This document shows positions 3,232 to 25,613 of a stretch of 25,613 nucleotides of DNA, piece by piece. The notes beneath the pieces were generated by a model. It did no database searches and was not told the origin of the DNA. It was given only the letters and a program-made list of their open reading frames with translations. The first letter of the stretch is position 1; each line of letters begins with the position of its first letter. Both the position numbers and the translations under genes were made by a program. The DNA is from a virus: positions 1 to 25,613 of IMG/VR virus record IMGVR_UViG_3300047476_000762; one strand, 5' to 3'.

Positions 3232-4146
3232 ATGAACAAGTATGAAAAGTTAATTGAATATATCGTTAATGATGAGCAAGATAAAGCCCGTGCTCTGTTT
3301 CACGATATCGTAGTAGAAAAAAGCCGCGGTATTTACGAAAGCCTGATGGACGAAGAGCAGTACGACGAAGGCATGGGCGGAAATGCTGTTGAAGACATGG
3401 TAGATGAAGTTTCTGCTGACGAAGAAGGCATGCAAGAAGCTGAAGACGACATGGACGACATGGACGGCGACGAAATTGGTACCGACGATGATGACATGGG
3501 CGACATGCCAGACATGGGCGGTGATGACGAAGGCGATCTAGAAGATCGCGTGATGGATCTTGAATCTGCACTAGACGAGCTCAAAGCTGAATTTGATGCC
3601 ATGATGGCAGACGAAGGCGGCGAAGACATGGGCGGCATGGACGATATGGACATGGGTAGTGATGATGATGAGGACATGCAGATGAACAGCATGTTTGAAG
3701 CTGAAGAGGACGACAAAGAAGAAGACGAGGAAGAAGACGAAGAAGACATGTCAGAATCACGTCGTAATCGTTCCGCAGCTGATCAAATTCGCGAGTACGT
3801 TGAAAAAGTCAGCGATGGTCACGGTGCTGAGAAAAAAGGTGGTGCTGAAGGACATGAAGTTGGCAAAGGTGGTAGTGTGAGCGTGAATAAAAATCACATT
3901 GTAGCCGGCAAAAACGACATGGGCGGTACAGCAGCTAATATCGTTAAAGGTGGTAGCGAGCAGGCGCCAGACGGTACAAGTCCAAAAGGTAAAGTTGGCG
4001 GATTTGTAAAAAAGGGTCCTGATTTAATCGGCGACGTAGAAAACCGCGTGAACAGTAAGACCAAAGGCTACACTAACAAGCAAAGCGCAAGCAAAGGCGA
4101 AGATGGTGGTGTAAACAAGACCAGTATTGAATCTGGTGGCAAGTAA
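3232..4146 (+). CDS. 68: Acidic prohead core protein, gp68-like position
   Basis: This 304-residue protein begins MNKYEKLIEYIVNDEQDKARALFHDIVVEKSR, a pattern I associate with gp68-like prohead core proteins of T4-like phages (T4 gp68 has 141 residues). Such proteins fill the prohead core and are cut up by gp21. Three regions are visible: a helical N-terminus (1-45); a very acidic Asp/Glu/Met/Gly-rich middle (about 45-175) with repeated DDM, DMGD and EDEE runs and one helical patch (LEDRVMDLESALDELKAEFD); and a basic, Gly/Lys/Asn-rich C-terminal half (about 180-304) containing AGKNDMGGTAANIVKGG. It sits between the gp67-like gene and the protease gene, with only 14 bases to the latter. The extra length comes from the low-complexity middle and tail. 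The core role is inferred from position and N-terminus. Confidence 0.65.
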   Translation: MNKYEKLIEYIVNDEQDKARALFHDIVVEKSRGIYESLMDEEQYDEGMGGNAVEDMVDEVSADEEGMQEAEDDMDDMDGDEIGTDDDDMGDMPDMGGDDEGDLEDRVMDLESALDELKAEFDAMMADEGGEDMGGMDDMDMGSDDDEDMQMNSMFEAEEDDKEEDEEEDEEDMSESRRNRSAADQIREYVEKVSDGHGAEKKGGAEGHEVGKGGSVSVNKNHIVAGKNDMGGTAANIVKGGSEQAPDGTSPKGKVGGFVKKGPDLIGDVENRVNSKTKGYTNKQSASKGEDGGVNKTSIESGGK

Positions 4147-5937: not shown

Positions 5938-7131
5938 ATGACAAGCGCACTACTAGAAAGCCGTTGGGGCGAAACCAAAGAAGCCCTGTTAGAAGGCTTA
6001 AACGGTTCCAAGAGAACCACAATGGGTGTAATCCTAGAGAACACTCGCAAGTATCTGGCAGAAAGTGCAACAGCAGGAGCAACTGCTGCCAGCAATGTAG
6101 CAACATTAAACCGTGTGATTCTTCCAGTGATTCGCCGTGTAATGCCAACAGTTATCGCTAACGAGATTGTTGGTGTTCAGCCGATGACTGGTCCAGTTGC
6201 ACAAATCCACACACTACGTGTTCGTTATGCTGATAGCCAAGCTTCTGGTTCTGGCGATCTAGCAACCGGTACCACAGCAGGTGAAGAAGCTCTAAGCCCA
6301 TTCAAGATTGCTGTTGGTTATTCTGGTGCTACTAGCACAGCAAACACAGGCGGTCGCCCAAGCAGCACCAGCACACTTGAAGGTGTAGCAGGTAACCGTA
6401 TCAACGTGCAAATCATGAAACAAGTAGTTGAAGCCAAGTCACGCAAGCTAAGTGCTCGCTGGACATTTGAAGCTGCACAAGATGCACAAGCCATGCATGG
6501 CCTGGACATTGAAGCAGAAATCATGGCTGCACTAGCACAAGAAATCACTGTTGAGATTGACCAGGAAATTCTGGGCAGCCTACGCAGTCTTGCTGCTACA
6601 GAAGAAACATTTGATCAAAGTACCGTAAGTGGTACAGCTACATTTGTTGGTGACGAGCATGCTGCACTAGCTGTTCTTATCAACCGTGTTGCTAACAAGA
6701 TCGCAAGCCGCACACGTCGTGGCGCTGGTAACTGGGCAGTTGTAAGTCCAGCTACACTAACAGTACTGCAAAGCGCAACAACCAGCGCATTTGCACGTAC
6801 CACAGAAGGCACATTTGAAGCTCCTACAAACACCAAGTTTGTTGGTACTTTGAACGGTGCAATGCGTGTGTATGTTGACAGCTATGCTGGCGACAGCCAA
6901 GCTGTTCTAGTAGGTTATAAGGGTAGCAGTGAAGCTGATGCAGCCGCATTCTACTGCCCATATGTTCCTCTAATGAGTTCTGGCGTTGTGCTGGATCCAT
7001 CAACATTTGAACCAGTCGTGGGCTTTATGACACGTTATGGTTATGTTGAATTGACCAACACTGCATCTTCTCTGGGTAACGCAGCAGATTACCTGGGCGA
7101 GATCAGCGTAAGCAACCTCAGCTTCCAATAA
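5938..7131 (+). CDS. 23: Major capsid protein, gp23-like
   Basis: This 397-residue T4-type HK97-fold shell protein has the family signature VILPVIRRVMPTVIANEIVG (about 60-79), followed by VQPMTGPVAQIHTLRVRYA. The Glu-rich helix with RWTFEAAQDAQAMHGLDIEAE (about 175-195) and the C-terminal FMTRYGYVELTN block are also present. A gp21 processing site is likely at Leu40-Ala41-Glu42 before SATAGATAASN, which would remove a 42-residue propeptide (T4 gp23 loses 65 residues). T4 gp23 has 521 residues. The shortage is greatest in the region matching the T4 insertion domain, so this shell protein probably lacks most of it, as in other distant T4-like phages. It is the last gene of the head unit and is followed by a strong terminator. 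Confidence 0.96.
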   Translation: MTSALLESRWGETKEALLEGLNGSKRTTMGVILENTRKYLAESATAGATAASNVATLNRVILPVIRRVMPTVIANEIVGVQPMTGPVAQIHTLRVRYADSQASGSGDLATGTTAGEEALSPFKIAVGYSGATSTANTGGRPSSTSTLEGVAGNRINVQIMKQVVEAKSRKLSARWTFEAAQDAQAMHGLDIEAEIMAALAQEITVEIDQEILGSLRSLAATEETFDQSTVSGTATFVGDEHAALAVLINRVANKIASRTRRGAGNWAVVSPATLTVLQSATTSAFARTTEGTFEAPTNTKFVGTLNGAMRVYVDSYAGDSQAVLVGYKGSSEADAAAFYCPYVPLMSSGVVLDPSTFEPVVGFMTRYGYVELTNTASSLGNAADYLGEISVSNLSFQ

Positions 7132-16119: not shown

Positions 16120-19100
16120 ATGGCAAGAAAATCAGTTAAAAATTATATTTTTACACCAGGCGCAGCAAATTCTGGAACAGTGGTAATTCCTGATCCTTAC
16201 AAACTTGGTGACATTCTAATGATCACAAACGTCACACGTAACACTGTGATTTACAATTTTGGTGATCCAACTAGAGGAGGCAGTATTGCGTATACCAACA
16301 ATACCAATGCTACTGCTACCAGTCCTGCAGGCACTGCTCTAAGTTCTGGTAAAACTATCTTTAGTAGTCTAAATAACGGATATACTACAGTTACCTTGAC
16401 ATTTGATACCAGCTCGCATAATGCTGCTGATGTGTTGCAAATCTTTGTTGAAAGCGACGAGTTAAAAATTCGTCCATATGATTTTGGTGTTGACGCTGTT
16501 GAGCGTATGAAAATCGCCGCACCACAGTCACTAATTGATGCGGACTTTGAATACGGTATGCAGCCAACCAAGTGGGTGAGTTTTGCATCCATGAATGACA
16601 TGCCTTGTACCTACGAACTGCCTGGTAGCGATTTAACGCTAGGCGGAAATTTGGGCAGTTATGCTACATTTGTCAGCGGTGGTCTCAATGCTGCTAGTAC
16701 CTTTATTTCTGGAACTCAACAGAACAATATTTGCTTCCAAAATCAGGGCTATGATGTGGCAGGAGCCACATTAACACAAAATGGTCCAAGAGCGATTCTC
16801 AATGGATACTACATGATAGTAGCCCAAGGACAAGCTGGACAGCCAAACTGCGCAGCAGGTACAACATCTATCACACACGATCTACCAGTGACAGTAAAAA
16901 CTGGTGGTATGTATCAGCGTACCTTTACTGTGGGCAATACCGCAGGGTGGAGTCCTGGTGATATTGCCTGCGTGGTTGAAATGCCAGGTGAAGGCGCAGA
17001 TGCAGCAGGTATCGGAGCAAAGGTTATTGGTACTGTGGCTACTACTGCTGTCACAGCCGGTGTGACCACTCTAGCAGCCAACGCTGCAATTTTAACTGCC
17101 AATGCTATTGTTTTGGTTGAAACAGCACAGTTTGGTGTATGGGAAGCCATGGCAGTGGCAGGCGGTACAACCACTACTGCAACAGTGGCACGTAACCTAT
17201 GGGGAACCAATAGTGCAAATGCAGCCATACCAATTGGCTCAAAGATTCGTATTCTAGCAGGGTCAACCACTTATGCTAATGCCAACGTTGAAACCATGCG
17301 TATTGACAGTGTGGATAGCTATAACCAGTTCACAGTAACACGTTCATGGTTTAACGTTAATGCCAGCCCAACGTTTGGTGCAAACTCAATTGTGTTCAAG
17401 GTTAACCACACAGCAAACTCAGCTGCTGTTATGGATGCAGCCAACATTGAAATTGTTCGTGCAACCACGGTGAATCCTCTACAATTAACTGGGCAAGTGA
17501 TTGAACGAGGCAGACTAGGTACTAGACCGCTGAGTGCCGCAGGCCCTGGTAGTCTAGTGGTCATGCTCACAGGTGCATTTGTAGCAGGAAACACTTCAGC
17601 ACAGTCAGTGGTATGTTATGTTCCTAACCACGAAATTGGGCTGGTTTCTAACTCCAACGTGGCCAACTGCTATGTGAGCACCTTGAACTTCAGTCAAGCT
17701 GTTACAGTAAGTAACATTGAAGGGGTATATTTTAACACTATCAACGACAGAAACTATGTAAGATATTATCCAAAAGTACAATTGAATCAACTACCAGGAC
17801 ACCAGTTGAATTCAAATGATCAACAGGCTGTATTACGTCGCGGCGGTATTTACACAGGTGCAAACATTGTGGTAGCCAACGTAACATCTAATGTGGGTTC
17901 TCCAAGTCTGGTGACTGTGAACACAGTTTATTCACATGGATTAACTCCTGGACAGGCTGTGCAAGTGATTCTAGGAACCGGTCCCCAAAGTACAGGACAG
18001 TTCGCCAACATTTACGAGGGCGGTACTGGACAGTTTGTAATCACCAGTACTCCTACTCCTAAGAGCTTTACTTACATAGGCAAACCCAATTTAATTATTC
18101 CTACTTTGCAAACCATTAACTCAGGTACTCCTTTTGTAGGATCCGAGCTGTTTGCCAACGTTACCATGTTCCCGACTGGACTGGTAAAACATCGTCCATT
18201 TGACGGTGGCAATAACATTGGTACAAACACACCAGCACACGGTTATGAAATGACACGTCAGACCAAGAAGTACTTCCGTTACCAATCTGGTAAAGGCACA
18301 ATGTTTACTTCTGGTACACAGTTTATGCCAACCTTCCAGATTGCCAATATTGTTGCAGCAGGAACTTCTATTGGTAGTGCTATTACAATTACCACAGAAA
18401 ATGAACATGGGCTACAGATTGGTGCAAATGTGCAACTGTTCGGAGTTAATTCATCTGGATATAACGCTTTTTATCGTGTGAACACTGTGACTAACAACAA
18501 CCAAGTGACAGTACTAGCCACCGATGTGCTAGGATCAGTAAATCCTAGCTTCACTCGCACAAGAACACAGGCCACTGATTATCAGGGCGTTACATATCCA
18601 CGATTGACCATTGTTAATTGGCACGGTAGCAAAGTGCGTTCTGGTATATTTGATGACGGTAACGGAGTATTCTATGAATACGATGGGTCTACATTCTACG
18701 CAGTAAAGCGCAGCAGTACCAATGATGTAGCAGGTCGTGCAACTGTAGCGGTAAACAGCAATCTCTTGATTGGAGATAAAGATTGCCGTTGGATTGATCA
18801 ACTGGCAACAGGCGATCAAATCGTGATCAAGGGCATGACACACACTATCACCGATGTAGTAACACAGAACATGATGTATATCACTCCGGTATATCGCGGG
18901 GTAGCTAATGCATTTGACACTCGCCTGTGCAGAATCAGTGAAGAGCGTACACCACAGCACGAGTTCAATCTAGACCGAATGGATGGAACTGGCCCAAGCG
19001 GTTACGTGATGGATCTCAAAAGAATGCAAATGATTGGCATTCAGTACACTTGGTACGGTGCTGGTTTTGTTGACTACATGATGCGCGGTATTGATGGTAA

Positions 19101-22100
19101 AATGCTCATGGCACATCGCAGTAAAGGCAACAACATCAATGACGAAGCCTACATGCGCACTGGTAACTTGCCAGCACGTTATCAGGCAGTTAACAAAGGT
19201 GCTCGTACCTGGACCAGTAAAGCAGTAACTCCTGATGCCACAGAAATACAACTGTATGATGTAAGCGAGTTTCCAGCAGCTAATGCTACCTATCCAGTGC
19301 ATGTACAAATTGATAATGAACTGATCAGCTACACTGGTGTATGGCAAGCAAACGGTAACATCACTGGACTATCGCGCGGCGCAACGCTGAGCAATTTTGT
19401 AATGAATGAGACACGAAGCTTATGGAAAGGTAGTAATGCTGGTGTAGCATGGAGTCCTCGTGGTATGCCAAGTAATGCACCTTGGGCAGCGCAAGCATTT
19501 AATCCACGTACAGGTACCTGGGTGGCAATTGCAGGATACAGCGCCGGCAGCCAAGTCACTGCATACAGTAAAGATGGACACAACTGGGTTGCCGGCGGAA
19601 ATCTGCCAAGCAGCAGCAATTGGTTTAACCTTGCATATGGTCAGCTGAATGGGATAGACACATTTGTGGCTATTTCTAATACCAACGGCACTGTGAGCGC
19701 ATACTCACAAGATGACGGGTTGACCTGGACTTCATTGTCCTTGCCTACCACTGCACAATGGTCAGGTCTGTCATACGGACTTGACCAAAACAATGTGCCA
19801 GTGTTTGTGGCTGTGTCAGGACTAGGAACTGTAAGCACTGCTACTGCTTATCTAAAAGTGATTGGTACAGGCTGGGTCGCAGGTGGTGCACTAACAGCTT
19901 CTCAGATGTGGACATCAGTGGCATTTGGTAAAACCACAGGCAATCTTACAGTTACAACTAACAATGTGAGTGCAAGAACCAACTACTTCTGTGCAGTTGG
20001 TGCCGGCGCCAACATGACTACCGCTACTACAATATTCAACTATAGTACAGATGGTGGTGTAACCTGGCTAGCAGGCGCACTGCAATCAGGTGGATACACC
20101 GATGTTGCATTTGGCAACAATACTTGGATTGCAATTGCTGGTGGATTGGGGGGCACAGCAGGCACAGTGGGCAGTTACATTCATGGCAATCCCGCAGTGG
20201 CAACCTGGGCAGCTACCACACTGCCGGCTACCCAAGGCTGGCGCAGCATTATTTGGGGCGAAATTTATGGTATGAACAACACCGCAGTGCCAAGTGTTGG
20301 ACAAGCAGGTCAATGGATGATTGTGAGCGATACCGCATCAACCACAACATTTGGATACATGACCAATCCACATAACCTTGGCCCAGGGGTAGCTCCAACT
20401 TGGCTAAGTGGTACACTAAACACAGCAGGCAGCTACACCAGCGTCTGCTGGGGCAAAGGCATGTTCACAACCTTGGCAAGTGCTCAATGGCAAGTGCCAA
20501 TCAGCGTGTTTGGTAACACATTTGCAACCAGCGAGCTTACAGCCGCAGGCAATTGGAGAGGACTGGCGCAAGGTGACGGTAATGTGGTGTCAGTTGGGTT
20601 CGGGCAAACAGTAGCACAGGTCAGTTACAATGGCGGTCGTACTTGGCAAGCATCAGGAACCATGGCCAGCAGTCAAAACTGGATCGCAGTTGCGTATGCT
20701 CCAGACATGGGACTTGGACAACGAGGAAGATTTGTTGCAGTTAGCAACACCAGCGGTACAACCGTACAATGGCAAGATGCAGTGAATCTAGGCGGATCCT
20801 GGAACACAGTGACCACAGGCGTGGCCAGTCAATCGTACACAGACGTCTGTGTAGTAAACCGAACCTTTGTGGTAGTTGGTACAACAGCCGTGAGCTTGTT
20901 CTCTGCCAACGGTGGCGTAGGTTTCAGTCAGGTAAACTTGCCAAGTAGCAGTAACTGGAGTGGGGTAGCAGGTGGCTTGTTCCCAATCTTCCAAGGTAAC
21001 ACTGGTAACGTTTGGATGGTAGCAGCAGTGAGCAGTACCAGCGGAACCACTGCTGCCTACAGTAATGTGCGTCCTGCAATTCAAGGACTAAGCTCAGCAC
21101 CAGACTCCGGTAACCAAGGACTGAATGTGGTTAGTTTGTGGGGTAGTGCAACGCTCCCAGCCACAGGCACATGGACCTGTATTGGGTATGGTTACAACAG
21201 CTATAGCAACACTGGCAGATTCATTGCTCTGGCAGCCAGCAGTACCAACTCAGCAATCAGTGTGGATGGTGGTAGAACCTGGACAGCAGGCGGCGCACTG
21301 CCAAGCAGCAGCTTATGGCAGCGTGTGGCTTATGGCTCCAATGGTATCTGGGTAGCTGTTGCTAATGATAGAAGCACTGTGGCAGCTTATAGTTTGGATC
21401 AAGGCGCGACCTGGGTGGCCAGTACATTGCCCACAGCATGTAACTGGACCAATGTGGTTTATCAAGATCGTCATCATCATTTCCTTGCTATATCCGGCGA
21501 TGCAACCAACGCCTCTGCAAATGTTTCTTTAAGTAGACCCACAGCAGGTATTGGCATGGAGCATACTGCAAATGCAGGTGTTAAGGTAGTGAGTGTAACT
21601 GCAAGTCCAGACTTGAATCACTGGGGTAGTGCTGTGATCATGGATGGTGGCTTTACAGTTGACCGCACATACACATTTACATACAACGTGACCAACTATC
21701 AAGTGGCATCAGTGGCAGGCGTACCACAAACCATGTTTATGATGAGACTGGCGCCAACTATTAGTAACTCCTTAACTGGAGAACTGGGCGGCAAAGAACT
21801 GATCAACCGTGCGCAGGTTCTATTACAGAGCATGTACATCAACGTTGGTTCAGCTGCTGCACGTTTCTTGGTACAAGGCGTTCTAAATCCAACCAACGTG
21901 TTAAGTGCAAACTGGAGACCGTTGAACGCAACTACAACGTTCTTACAGCCTAGCTTTACACAGTTTGTACCAAATGCACTAGCAGCTTCACCGGTTGGTG
22001 TGCGCCAAATAATCTTTGGTGCAAACACCACTGCAACTGGTATTCAAATTGGCGAAGGCGCAGCATCACATGCTGCAACTGGTGGCGAACAATTGTTCTC

Positions 22101-22290
22101 CATACCAGTTACACAGACCAACTCTGGTTACTTGGATCTAAGTCAAATTAAGGAAATCACCAGTATGGTGCTGCCAGGTATTGGCACATATCCAAATGGT
22201 AACGAAGTATTGGCAATTAACATTGTTCCAATTACAGCAGTTGCTTCAAACGTTGACATTCAGTTGACATTTATTGAATCACAAGCATAA
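16120..22290 (+). CDS. Giant virion protein (2056 residues) with an inserted Asp-box repeat domain
   Basis: The N-terminal part resembles large structural proteins I recall from aquatic T4-like phages: GDILMITNVTRNTVIYNF, then IRPYDFGVDAVERMKIAAPQ and SLIDADFEYGMQPTKW (about 122-152). QTKKYFRYQSGKG (714-726), TWYGAGFVDYMMRGIDGKM and NNINDEAYMRTGNLPARYQ (about 970-1027) are further backbone landmarks, ending at LSRGATLSNF (1084-1093). The backbone seems to resume at EHTANAGVKVVSV (1814) and DLNHWGSAVIMDGGF (about 1831), with RLAPTISN...LGGKELINRAQVLLQS after it. Between them, about 1111-1813, lie 14 propeller-like units with Asp boxes (SxDxGxxW) at residues 1150, 1196, 1309, 1502, 1714 and 1758. 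It probably sits on the virion surface and may bind host glycans; that is inference. A strong palindromic terminator follows. Confidence 0.75.
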   Translation: MARKSVKNYIFTPGAANSGTVVIPDPYKLGDILMITNVTRNTVIYNFGDPTRGGSIAYTNNTNATATSPAGTALSSGKTIFSSLNNGYTTVTLTFDTSSHNAADVLQIFVESDELKIRPYDFGVDAVERMKIAAPQSLIDADFEYGMQPTKWVSFASMNDMPCTYELPGSDLTLGGNLGSYATFVSGGLNAASTFISGTQQNNICFQNQGYDVAGATLTQNGPRAILNGYYMIVAQGQAGQPNCAAGTTSITHDLPVTVKTGGMYQRTFTVGNTAGWSPGDIACVVEMPGEGADAAGIGAKVIGTVATTAVTAGVTTLAANAAILTANAIVLVETAQFGVWEAMAVAGGTTTTATVARNLWGTNSANAAIPIGSKIRILAGSTTYANANVETMRIDSVDSYNQFTVTRSWFNVNASPTFGANSIVFKVNHTANSAAVMDAANIEIVRATTVNPLQLTGQVIERGRLGTRPLSAAGPGSLVVMLTGAFVAGNTSAQSVVCYVPNHEIGLVSNSNVANCYVSTLNFSQAVTVSNIEGVYFNTINDRNYVRYYPKVQLNQLPGHQLNSNDQQAVLRRGGIYTGANIVVANVTSNVGSPSLVTVNTVYSHGLTPGQAVQVILGTGPQSTGQFANIYEGGTGQFVITSTPTPKSFTYIGKPNLIIPTLQTINSGTPFVGSELFANVTMFPTGLVKHRPFDGGNNIGTNTPAHGYEMTRQTKKYFRYQSGKGTMFTSGTQFMPTFQIANIVAAGTSIGSAITITTENEHGLQIGANVQLFGVNSSGYNAFYRVNTVTNNNQVTVLATDVLGSVNPSFTRTRTQATDYQGVTYPRLTIVNWHGSKVRSGIFDDGNGVFYEYDGSTFYAVKRSSTNDVAGRATVAVNSNLLIGDKDCRWIDQLATGDQIVIKGMTHTITDVVTQNMMYITPVYRGVANAFDTRLCRISEERTPQHEFNLDRMDGTGPSGYVMDLKRMQMIGIQYTWYGAGFVDYMMRGIDGKMLMAHRSKGNNINDEAYMRTGNLPARYQAVNKGARTWTSKAVTPDATEIQLYDVSEFPAANATYPVHVQIDNELISYTGVWQANGNITGLSRGATLSNFVMNETRSLWKGSNAGVAWSPRGMPSNAPWAAQAFNPRTGTWVAIAGYSAGSQVTAYSKDGHNWVAGGNLPSSSNWFNLAYGQLNGIDTFVAISNTNGTVSAYSQDDGLTWTSLSLPTTAQWSGLSYGLDQNNVPVFVAVSGLGTVSTATAYLKVIGTGWVAGGALTASQMWTSVAFGKTTGNLTVTTNNVSARTNYFCAVGAGANMTTATTIFNYSTDGGVTWLAGALQSGGYTDVAFGNNTWIAIAGGLGGTAGTVGSYIHGNPAVATWAATTLPATQGWRSIIWGEIYGMNNTAVPSVGQAGQWMIVSDTASTTTFGYMTNPHNLGPGVAPTWLSGTLNTAGSYTSVCWGKGMFTTLASAQWQVPISVFGNTFATSELTAAGNWRGLAQGDGNVVSVGFGQTVAQVSYNGGRTWQASGTMASSQNWIAVAYAPDMGLGQRGRFVAVSNTSGTTVQWQDAVNLGGSWNTVTTGVASQSYTDVCVVNRTFVVVGTTAVSLFSANGGVGFSQVNLPSSSNWSGVAGGLFPIFQGNTGNVWMVAAVSSTSGTTAAYSNVRPAIQGLSSAPDSGNQGLNVVSLWGSATLPATGTWTCIGYGYNSYSNTGRFIALAASSTNSAISVDGGRTWTAGGALPSSSLWQRVAYGSNGIWVAVANDRSTVAAYSLDQGATWVASTLPTACNWTNVVYQDRHHHFLAISGDATNASANVSLSRPTAGIGMEHTANAGVKVVSVTASPDLNHWGSAVIMDGGFTVDRTYTFTYNVTNYQVASVAGVPQTMFMMRLAPTISNSLTGELGGKELINRAQVLLQSMYINVGSAAARFLVQGVLNPTNVLSANWRPLNATTTFLQPSFTQFVPNALAASPVGVRQIIFGANTTATGIQIGEGAASHAATGGEQLFSIPVTQTNSGYLDLSQIKEITSMVLPGIGTYPNGNEVLAINIVPITAVASNVDIQLTFIESQA
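19450..21558 (+). repeat. 14-unit Asp-box/propeller-like repeat region inside the giant gene
   Basis: Each unit of roughly 40-65 residues has the form LPsssnW-x-x-vaYG, then a hydrophobic strand (FVAVS), then SxDxGxtW. Clear LP...W starts are at NLPSSSNW (twice), SLPTTAQW, TLPATQGW, TLPATGTW, ALPSSSLW and TLPTACNW, with more diverged copies between. The first unit is preceded by AWSPRG and the last lacks its closing W strand, the pattern of a ring closed by joining first and last strands. Fourteen units fit two seven-bladed propellers. The blade count is inferred. Confidence 0.65.
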
Positions 22291-24901: not shown

Positions 24902-25613
24902 ATGCAAAAATTAAAAAAACTTTACAGAGCAGAATATAACGGAGAAACCATGACCACTGCTTCTACTTGGAGCGGAAGTCGCTGGGAGTATACACAAGAG
25001 TTTATTCCTAACGCTATCAGCAATCAACATATTTCTCGTAGAGCTGTGATAATTGGTAACGGTAACAGTAGAAAAAACTATGAGTTAAATTTACTGAAAA
25101 ATCATAGAGCTGGTATACTAGGTGCCCTAGCAGTACAAACTTATGGATGTAATGCACTATATAGAGATTTTGCTCCTACGTTTCTTGTAAGCACCGGGAC
25201 AAATATTAGTGAAGAAATAGCAGATAGCAATTACTGCGAAGACAACATTGTGTATGCAAATGCAGAAGTTGTAGCTGCACACCCACAAAAATTTTACCTG
25301 GTGCCACAAGACATACATTATGATGCTGGTGCACTGGCAGTATACTTGGCCTGTTTTGATGGACACAAGCAGATTTATCTTCTGGGGTTTGACAACTGGA
25401 CCGGTAACGGCGATAACAGTAACATGTATGTTGATACTAATTCATATGGCTCTAGAAATCAAGAACCAGCACACAATCTTTGGACAACCACGTTAAAACA
25501 TGTTATGGAAGCCTATGATGAAGTTCAGTTCACTAGAGTCATGCCCACATCAGGTTGGTGGTGTCCTGATGCTTGGAAAAACTGTTTGAATTTTAGACAA
25601 ATTACTTACAAGG
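24902..25613 (+). CDS. Putative Rossmann-like sugar-modifying protein (3' end off the window)
   Basis: A frame starting at the ATG at 24902 stays open for 237 codons to the window edge, with AGGA at 24891-24894 before it. Unlike its neighbours it is not Thr/Asn/Gly-repeat sequence. After a 45-residue N-terminus comes RRAVIIGNGNSRKNYEL (about 46-62), a strand followed by a Gly-rich turn. Then come TYGCNALYRDFAPTFLVS (80-97), FYLVPQDIHYDAG, and LACFDGHKQIYLLGFDNW (149-166). The IGNGxS, GCNALYRDF and IYLLGFD trio resembles a phage protein family I associate loosely with DUF115/Maf-type glycosyltransferase-like folds. It could modify virion or host surface sugars next to the fibre genes. The function is weakly supported; the gene is firm. 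Confidence 0.45.
   Translation, partial: MQKLKKLYRAEYNGETMTTASTWSGSRWEYTQEFIPNAISNQHISRRAVIIGNGNSRKNYELNLLKNHRAGILGALAVQTYGCNALYRDFAPTFLVSTGTNISEEIADSNYCEDNIVYANAEVVAAHPQKFYLVPQDIHYDAGALAVYLACFDGHKQIYLLGFDNWTGNGDNSNMYVDTNSYGSRNQEPAHNLWTTTLKHVMEAYDEVQFTRVMPTSGWWCPDAWKNCLNFRQITYK

Follow-up and report, generated by a model that had tools for sequence, protein, structure and literature searches.

The locus raises the question of how some 700 residues of Asp-box repeats came to lie within a conserved phage virion protein, what they fold into and what they contribute there. It is addressed here in the window, which is the whole 25.6-kb IMG/VR record analysed. The account favoured, with a confidence somewhat better than even, joins the once-only insertion of a double Asp-box propeller into a virion protein loop with a nested arrangement of the two rings and a binding role.

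The virion protein gene and its genomic setting

The repeats are carried by a virion structural protein gene at 16120–22290 (plus strand), which is open throughout in one frame and encodes 2056 residues. Residues 1–1104 of the product match the PHROGs profile of the virion structural family phrog_5838 (E 1.3e-194), and the protein consists of a backbone of this family with an inserted block. The N-terminal backbone (residues 1–1103, 16120–19428, plus strand) terminates in a small motif, NELISYTG...NITGLSRGATLSNF, common to block-less homologues, and the C-terminal backbone (residues 1813–2056, 21556–22287, plus strand), reading HTANAGVKVVSV...NHWGSAVIMDGGF...IESQA, also aligns with homologues. 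The backbone aligns across the insertion with phrog_5838 proteins, namely those of S-CAM1 (about 38% identical) and AG-345-P14, both without the propeller block, and those of T4-like gene cluster 863 in Syn1 and S-PM2.

The window, which derives from an uncultured giant T4-like phage, also has genes for a portal, a protease and a major head protein, and the block gene is flanked by other large structural or fibre-like genes. The major head protein (5938–7131) displays 66–70% identity to those of T4-like jumbo phages (Sinorhizobium phage Phosso, Vibrio phage 2.275.O), while the nearest full relative, L002, lies on a 355-kb contig. The first-pass annotation had assigned the backbone family to aquatic T4-like phages. 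This agrees with the cyanophage-type relatives of the 2056-residue backbone but is incomplete, given the jumbo-type head protein and the 355-kb contig. Read from these relatives, the phage would be of mixed ancestry, with a jumbo T4-like head gene on one side and cyanophage-type fibre-like genes on the other.

Two further reading frames of the window are recorded here. A very acidic, Asp/Glu/Met-rich ORF of 304 residues (3232–4146), with no match in PHROGs, is located between the portal and head protease genes, the position occupied in T4 by prohead core proteins. Downstream of the block gene, the ORF at 24902–25612 (17461–18192 in L002) begins with RAVIIGNG.SRKNYEL and gives a weak PHROG match to the alpha-2,3-sialyltransferase family (E 0.013). 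Pelagibacter phages provide its sole phage relatives found, its L002 homologue has no match in Pfam or among PDB sequences, and the product is possibly glycosyltransferase-like.

Boundaries of the insertion and empty-site relatives

The block boundaries were set by alignment with block-less relatives. The gap in this alignment is clean and extends from a TRGAT...RS motif to an HTANAGV motif, which places the block at about residues 1104–1812 (19429–21555, plus strand) as an in-frame segment of about 709 residues comprising 14 propeller repeat units. The flanks near residues 1093 and 1814 that had been proposed earlier are correct, and the aligned interval lies within a few codons of the 19430–21561 then given. 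An alignment-based IMG/VR scan retained 80 backbone relatives. The anchors on either side of the site are only 1–26 residues apart in 79 block-less loci, made up of 77 of these IMG/VR contigs, where both anchors share a reading frame, with S-CAM1 and AG-345-P14, in contrast to 718–767 residues in the clade of the window. In cyanophage S-CAM1 and the marine virus AG-345-P14, which align on both sides of the block, the anchors are separated by 16 residues; at the insertion site, S-PM2 and a Manatee Spring phage carry different stretches, of 183 and 147 residues, respectively. The block is found in frame at the identical site in the separate contigs L002, L005, L006, L007, L023, L025 and L125, with a partial copy in L024, and this recurrence rules out an assembly chimera.

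By these alignments, the block of about 700 residues was inserted at a short loop that almost every related phage leaves unoccupied. The earlier proposal of a block inserted into a conserved structural backbone is therefore borne out, as the homologues do not all contain it as part of one domain: 79 loci are without it and one clade has it. No short direct or inverted repeats mark the block junction, the only repeats found being scattered inside the block. The phrog_5838-type backbone core measures about 271–287 residues and is constant in nearly all homologues, the length variation of the family being located mainly upstream, where a pair of conserved motifs is separated by 199–1173 residues, as well as close to the C-terminus. 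Proteins of the backbone family in L011, L077, L103 and other homologues range from 953 to more than 3400 residues and are variable at other points. Such variation suggests further swappable domains in the family.

Repeat units and predicted ring arrangement

Four exact S-x-D-x-G-x-x-W Asp boxes are present in the protein, at residues 1196, 1309, 1714 and 1758, every one of them within the block. They correspond to SQDDGLTW (19705–19728), STDGGVTW (20044–20067), SVDGGRTW (21259–21282) and SLDQGATW (21391–21414), all on the plus strand, whereas 2000 shuffles of the 2056-residue protein contain a mean of 0.012 exact boxes and a maximum of 1. The set is completed by SYNGGRTW (20623–20646, plus strand), in which Asn replaces Asp as permitted by the published consensus (PMC2716378), and by one short variant, and the boxes hold a fixed place in the repeat. 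The Pfam BNR profile scores above its curated cut-off with the whole protein (28 versus 27 bits) and reaches 32.5 bits with the block alone; the Asp-box repeats noticed in the first pass are well founded on both measures. A repeat model built solely from two other phage propellers, those of L027 and Xanthomonas phage XacN1, matches the window protein with an E of 9.9e-9 through scoring matches in the block, the best of 200 block shuffles reaching 3.7 bits and nothing notable appearing in S-CAM1 or L030.

The 14 units contain 40–72 residues each, the last being truncated, and resemble one another with a mean z of 4.1, a backbone control giving 0.9. Autocorrelation across the block reveals no clear single period, as expected from units of such variable length. 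Unit 14 is without a fourth strand, and the 16 residues that open the block resemble one in sequence pattern. The N-terminal segment NAGVAWSPRGMPSNAP (19435–19482, plus strand) may complete the blade of unit 14 and close the ring against it. An origin of the block by tandem duplication of a 7-unit ring was considered and rejected, as there is no 7-unit offset signal (p 0.79).

An AlphaFold2 model of residues 930–2056, obtained from a shallow alignment, displays pLDDT values of 70–93 for most of the block and an overall pTM of 0.48, the backbone preceding the insertion being poorly predicted. The block is predicted to fold as an Asp-box beta-propeller with four-stranded blades. The top structural matches to the model are single 7-bladed rings, with Z of about 28–32.5 over some 285 residues at 2.3–2.9 Å and the best at Z 32.5, 285 residues and 2.3 Å. 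The fifty matches listed, mostly single 7-bladed rings, all cover both block ends (model 175–883), a range that marks the first and last aligned residues only and that the N-terminal strand together with units 8–14 would fit too. Both ends of the block are predicted to lie in one ring. Units 5–11 (residues 1326–1684, 20095–21171, plus strand) also form a ring when folded alone with AlphaFold2 (pLDDT 75, pTM 0.77), for which Foldseek gives the 7-bladed YCF48 as top match (E 3.5e-9). VIA-align ranks 8-bladed rings (Z 26.8, 2.8 Å) slightly ahead of 7-bladed ones (Z 24.4, 3.0 Å), the matches Rsa4, cytochrome cd1, Fbw7 and Tako8 being judged 8-bladed partly from their entry titles. All eight contiguous choices of inner ring were compared by how far similarity within rings exceeds similarity between them. 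Units 5–11, picked for folding ahead of this similarity-partition test, score best by a modest margin, and the division into units 1–7 and 8–14 scores worst. An inner ring of units 5–11 is the best reading of these data; the exact partition is tentative, and the inner ring may have seven or eight blades.

In a nested 7+7 arrangement, the inner ring B of units 5–11 would be placed between the blades of an outer ring A, to which units 1–4 (residues 1122–1325, 19483–20094, plus strand) would contribute the first part and units 12–14 (residues 1685–1812, 21172–21555, plus strand) the second, the whole lying inside the virion protein. This arrangement is proposed tentatively, with a little less than an even chance. 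The same insertion could instead carry its rings in tandem, units 1–7 followed by units 8–14, nesting then being an artefact of a model with a shallow alignment and a low pTM. Such a tandem 7+7 Asp-box arrangement is known from GH74 hydrolases (PMC2716378), and Foldseek places a GH74 enzyme, 6p2l, at the top for the whole 930–2056 model (E 1e-14). However, the reach of all fifty listed matches to both block ends and the similarity partition, poorest for the tandem division and best for units 5–11, argue against it and leave tandem rings somewhat unlikely. The propeller fold anticipated from the Asp boxes is reproduced by structure prediction, and the insertion of a propeller stands; what had been described as one domain consists of 14 units apparently organised in two rings, which may well be nested.

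History, role and significance of the block

In a tree of 88 backbones the seven block carriers form one clade (SH-aLRT 99) nested among block-less relatives, with L030 and L032, both block-less, as its sisters. The block state changes once on the tree, none of 500 shuffles being as low, and L125, found after the tree, holds the block at the same place. One gain suffices because the carriers form a single nested clade, and on this tree it is a far simpler explanation of the data than repeated loss. Blocks of the main group are 59–86% identical to that of the window, against 79–94% for the flanking backbone, and in the outlier L025 the values are 43% and 66–69%. The dN/dS ratios of block and backbone in two close pairs, 0.102 versus 0.047–0.070 and 0.231 versus 0.097–0.153, with dS near saturation in one pair, indicate that the block is still under purifying selection. 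Its rate of change is roughly double that of the backbone; this would suit a part that faces the host, although relaxed constraint could also be the cause.

Base composition was examined as a sign of foreign origin and discarded. GC is 0.49–0.51 in the block versus 0.44–0.47, but third-position GC is not consistently higher in the relatives; the excess thus follows amino-acid make-up, and composition is no evidence for recent transfer. One tblastn scan of genome contigs reveals no cellular relative of the block, and no second copy is found in the 355-kb relative. Searched against PDB sequences, the block profile yields nothing at E < 0.01, and PHROGs holds no significant family for the block.

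In the mechanism proposed, a double Asp-box beta-propeller of 14 units would have entered the short loop once, in frame, in the common ancestor of a single phage clade, whose members would have inherited it thereafter. The N-terminal segment of the block would supply the outer strand missing from the last unit, and an outer ring of units 1–4 and 12–14 would enclose the second ring of units 5–11. With its ends together in one ring, the block could occupy the loop and leave the backbone undisturbed. The loop is presumably exposed on the virion surface, where the block would display a binding surface for a cell-surface polymer or protein, acting as an adhesive and not as an enzyme. That the block is an added binding surface is probable: it is located in a virion protein, most relatives lack it and it evolves faster than the backbone, all of which is consistent with such a role.

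Other explanations concern both the origin and the role of the block. An ancestral block lost from every other lineage would agree with the segments that come and go elsewhere in the backbone family, as its length changes display, but it needs many independent precise losses where the tree is satisfied by one gain, and is very improbable. A mere structural spacer, or an intra-virion protein–protein contact without host binding, has a precedent in the structural propeller of the phage SU10 nozzle protein (PMC9509320); the lack of the block in most relatives and its faster change relative to the backbone speak against this role, which is unlikely. A glycan-cleaving enzyme on the virion, either sialidase-like or a GH74-like depolymerase, is more doubtful still. 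Asp-box propellers of known structure are mostly glycosidases, the rest being Vps10 receptors and a handful of other proteins (PMC2716378), GH74 is the nearest solved fold to the whole model, and a GH74-like catalytic Asp pair may be present among the four invariant Asp of seven homologues (D1152, D1180, D1222 and D1553, the first within the short Asp box). In contrast, the RIP motif is absent from all seven blocks examined, arginine amounts to only 0.9–2.6% of the block, and the seven homologues share only three invariant Arg and no invariant Glu. The propellers of GH33 and GH58 sialidases are 6-bladed (PMC2716378); 7- and 8-bladed rings head the match lists of the block. The missing RIP motif and the few arginines make a sialidase unlikely and favour binding over cleavage.

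The binding propeller favoured here can be set beside known systems. GH74 xyloglucanases likewise contain two rings of Asp-box blades, 7-bladed each. Their rings are in tandem (PMC2716378), whereas one ring of the block seems to use both block ends, and no sign of catalysis is seen. YCF48, a photosystem assembly factor, is a single 7-bladed ring of Asp-box type and matches units 5–11 with a TM of about 0.5–0.67 at about 15% identity. L026, L027 and L028 are collagen-repeat, fibre-like phage proteins with a propeller run of about seven units. Together with XacN1 ORF384 they share the motif W..VAYG...FVAVA...S.DG..W and 25–37% identity over part of the block; their propellers comprise about seven units in one run and are carried by other kinds of protein and not by this backbone. 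Vibrio phages VP2 and OVC8 similarly carry BNR/Asp-box repeats in a virion protein, although the carrier protein is different. T4 Hoc and similar Ig-decorated proteins also combine a conserved virion anchor with variable surface domains (PMC10385173), which are Ig-like in contrast to the propellers of the block.

Proteins of this backbone family are already known, as are virion proteins of other phages with Asp-box propellers; the combination of the two, the precise once-only insertion and the putative nesting are probably new. A literature search covering few subscription journals found neither a description of this propeller-bearing protein nor a published 14-bladed propeller. The nesting, if true, falls outside the four types of organisation described for Asp-box propellers (PMC2716378), and nested rings would extend the range of architectures in a fold family that has been studied in depth. 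The locus is a clean example of how a single, exactly defined loop of a phage virion protein can take up a foreign domain of very large size, and the empty-site relatives permit direct comparison. Such relatives and a precise single insertion make the acquisition of new phage surface functions testable through one block.
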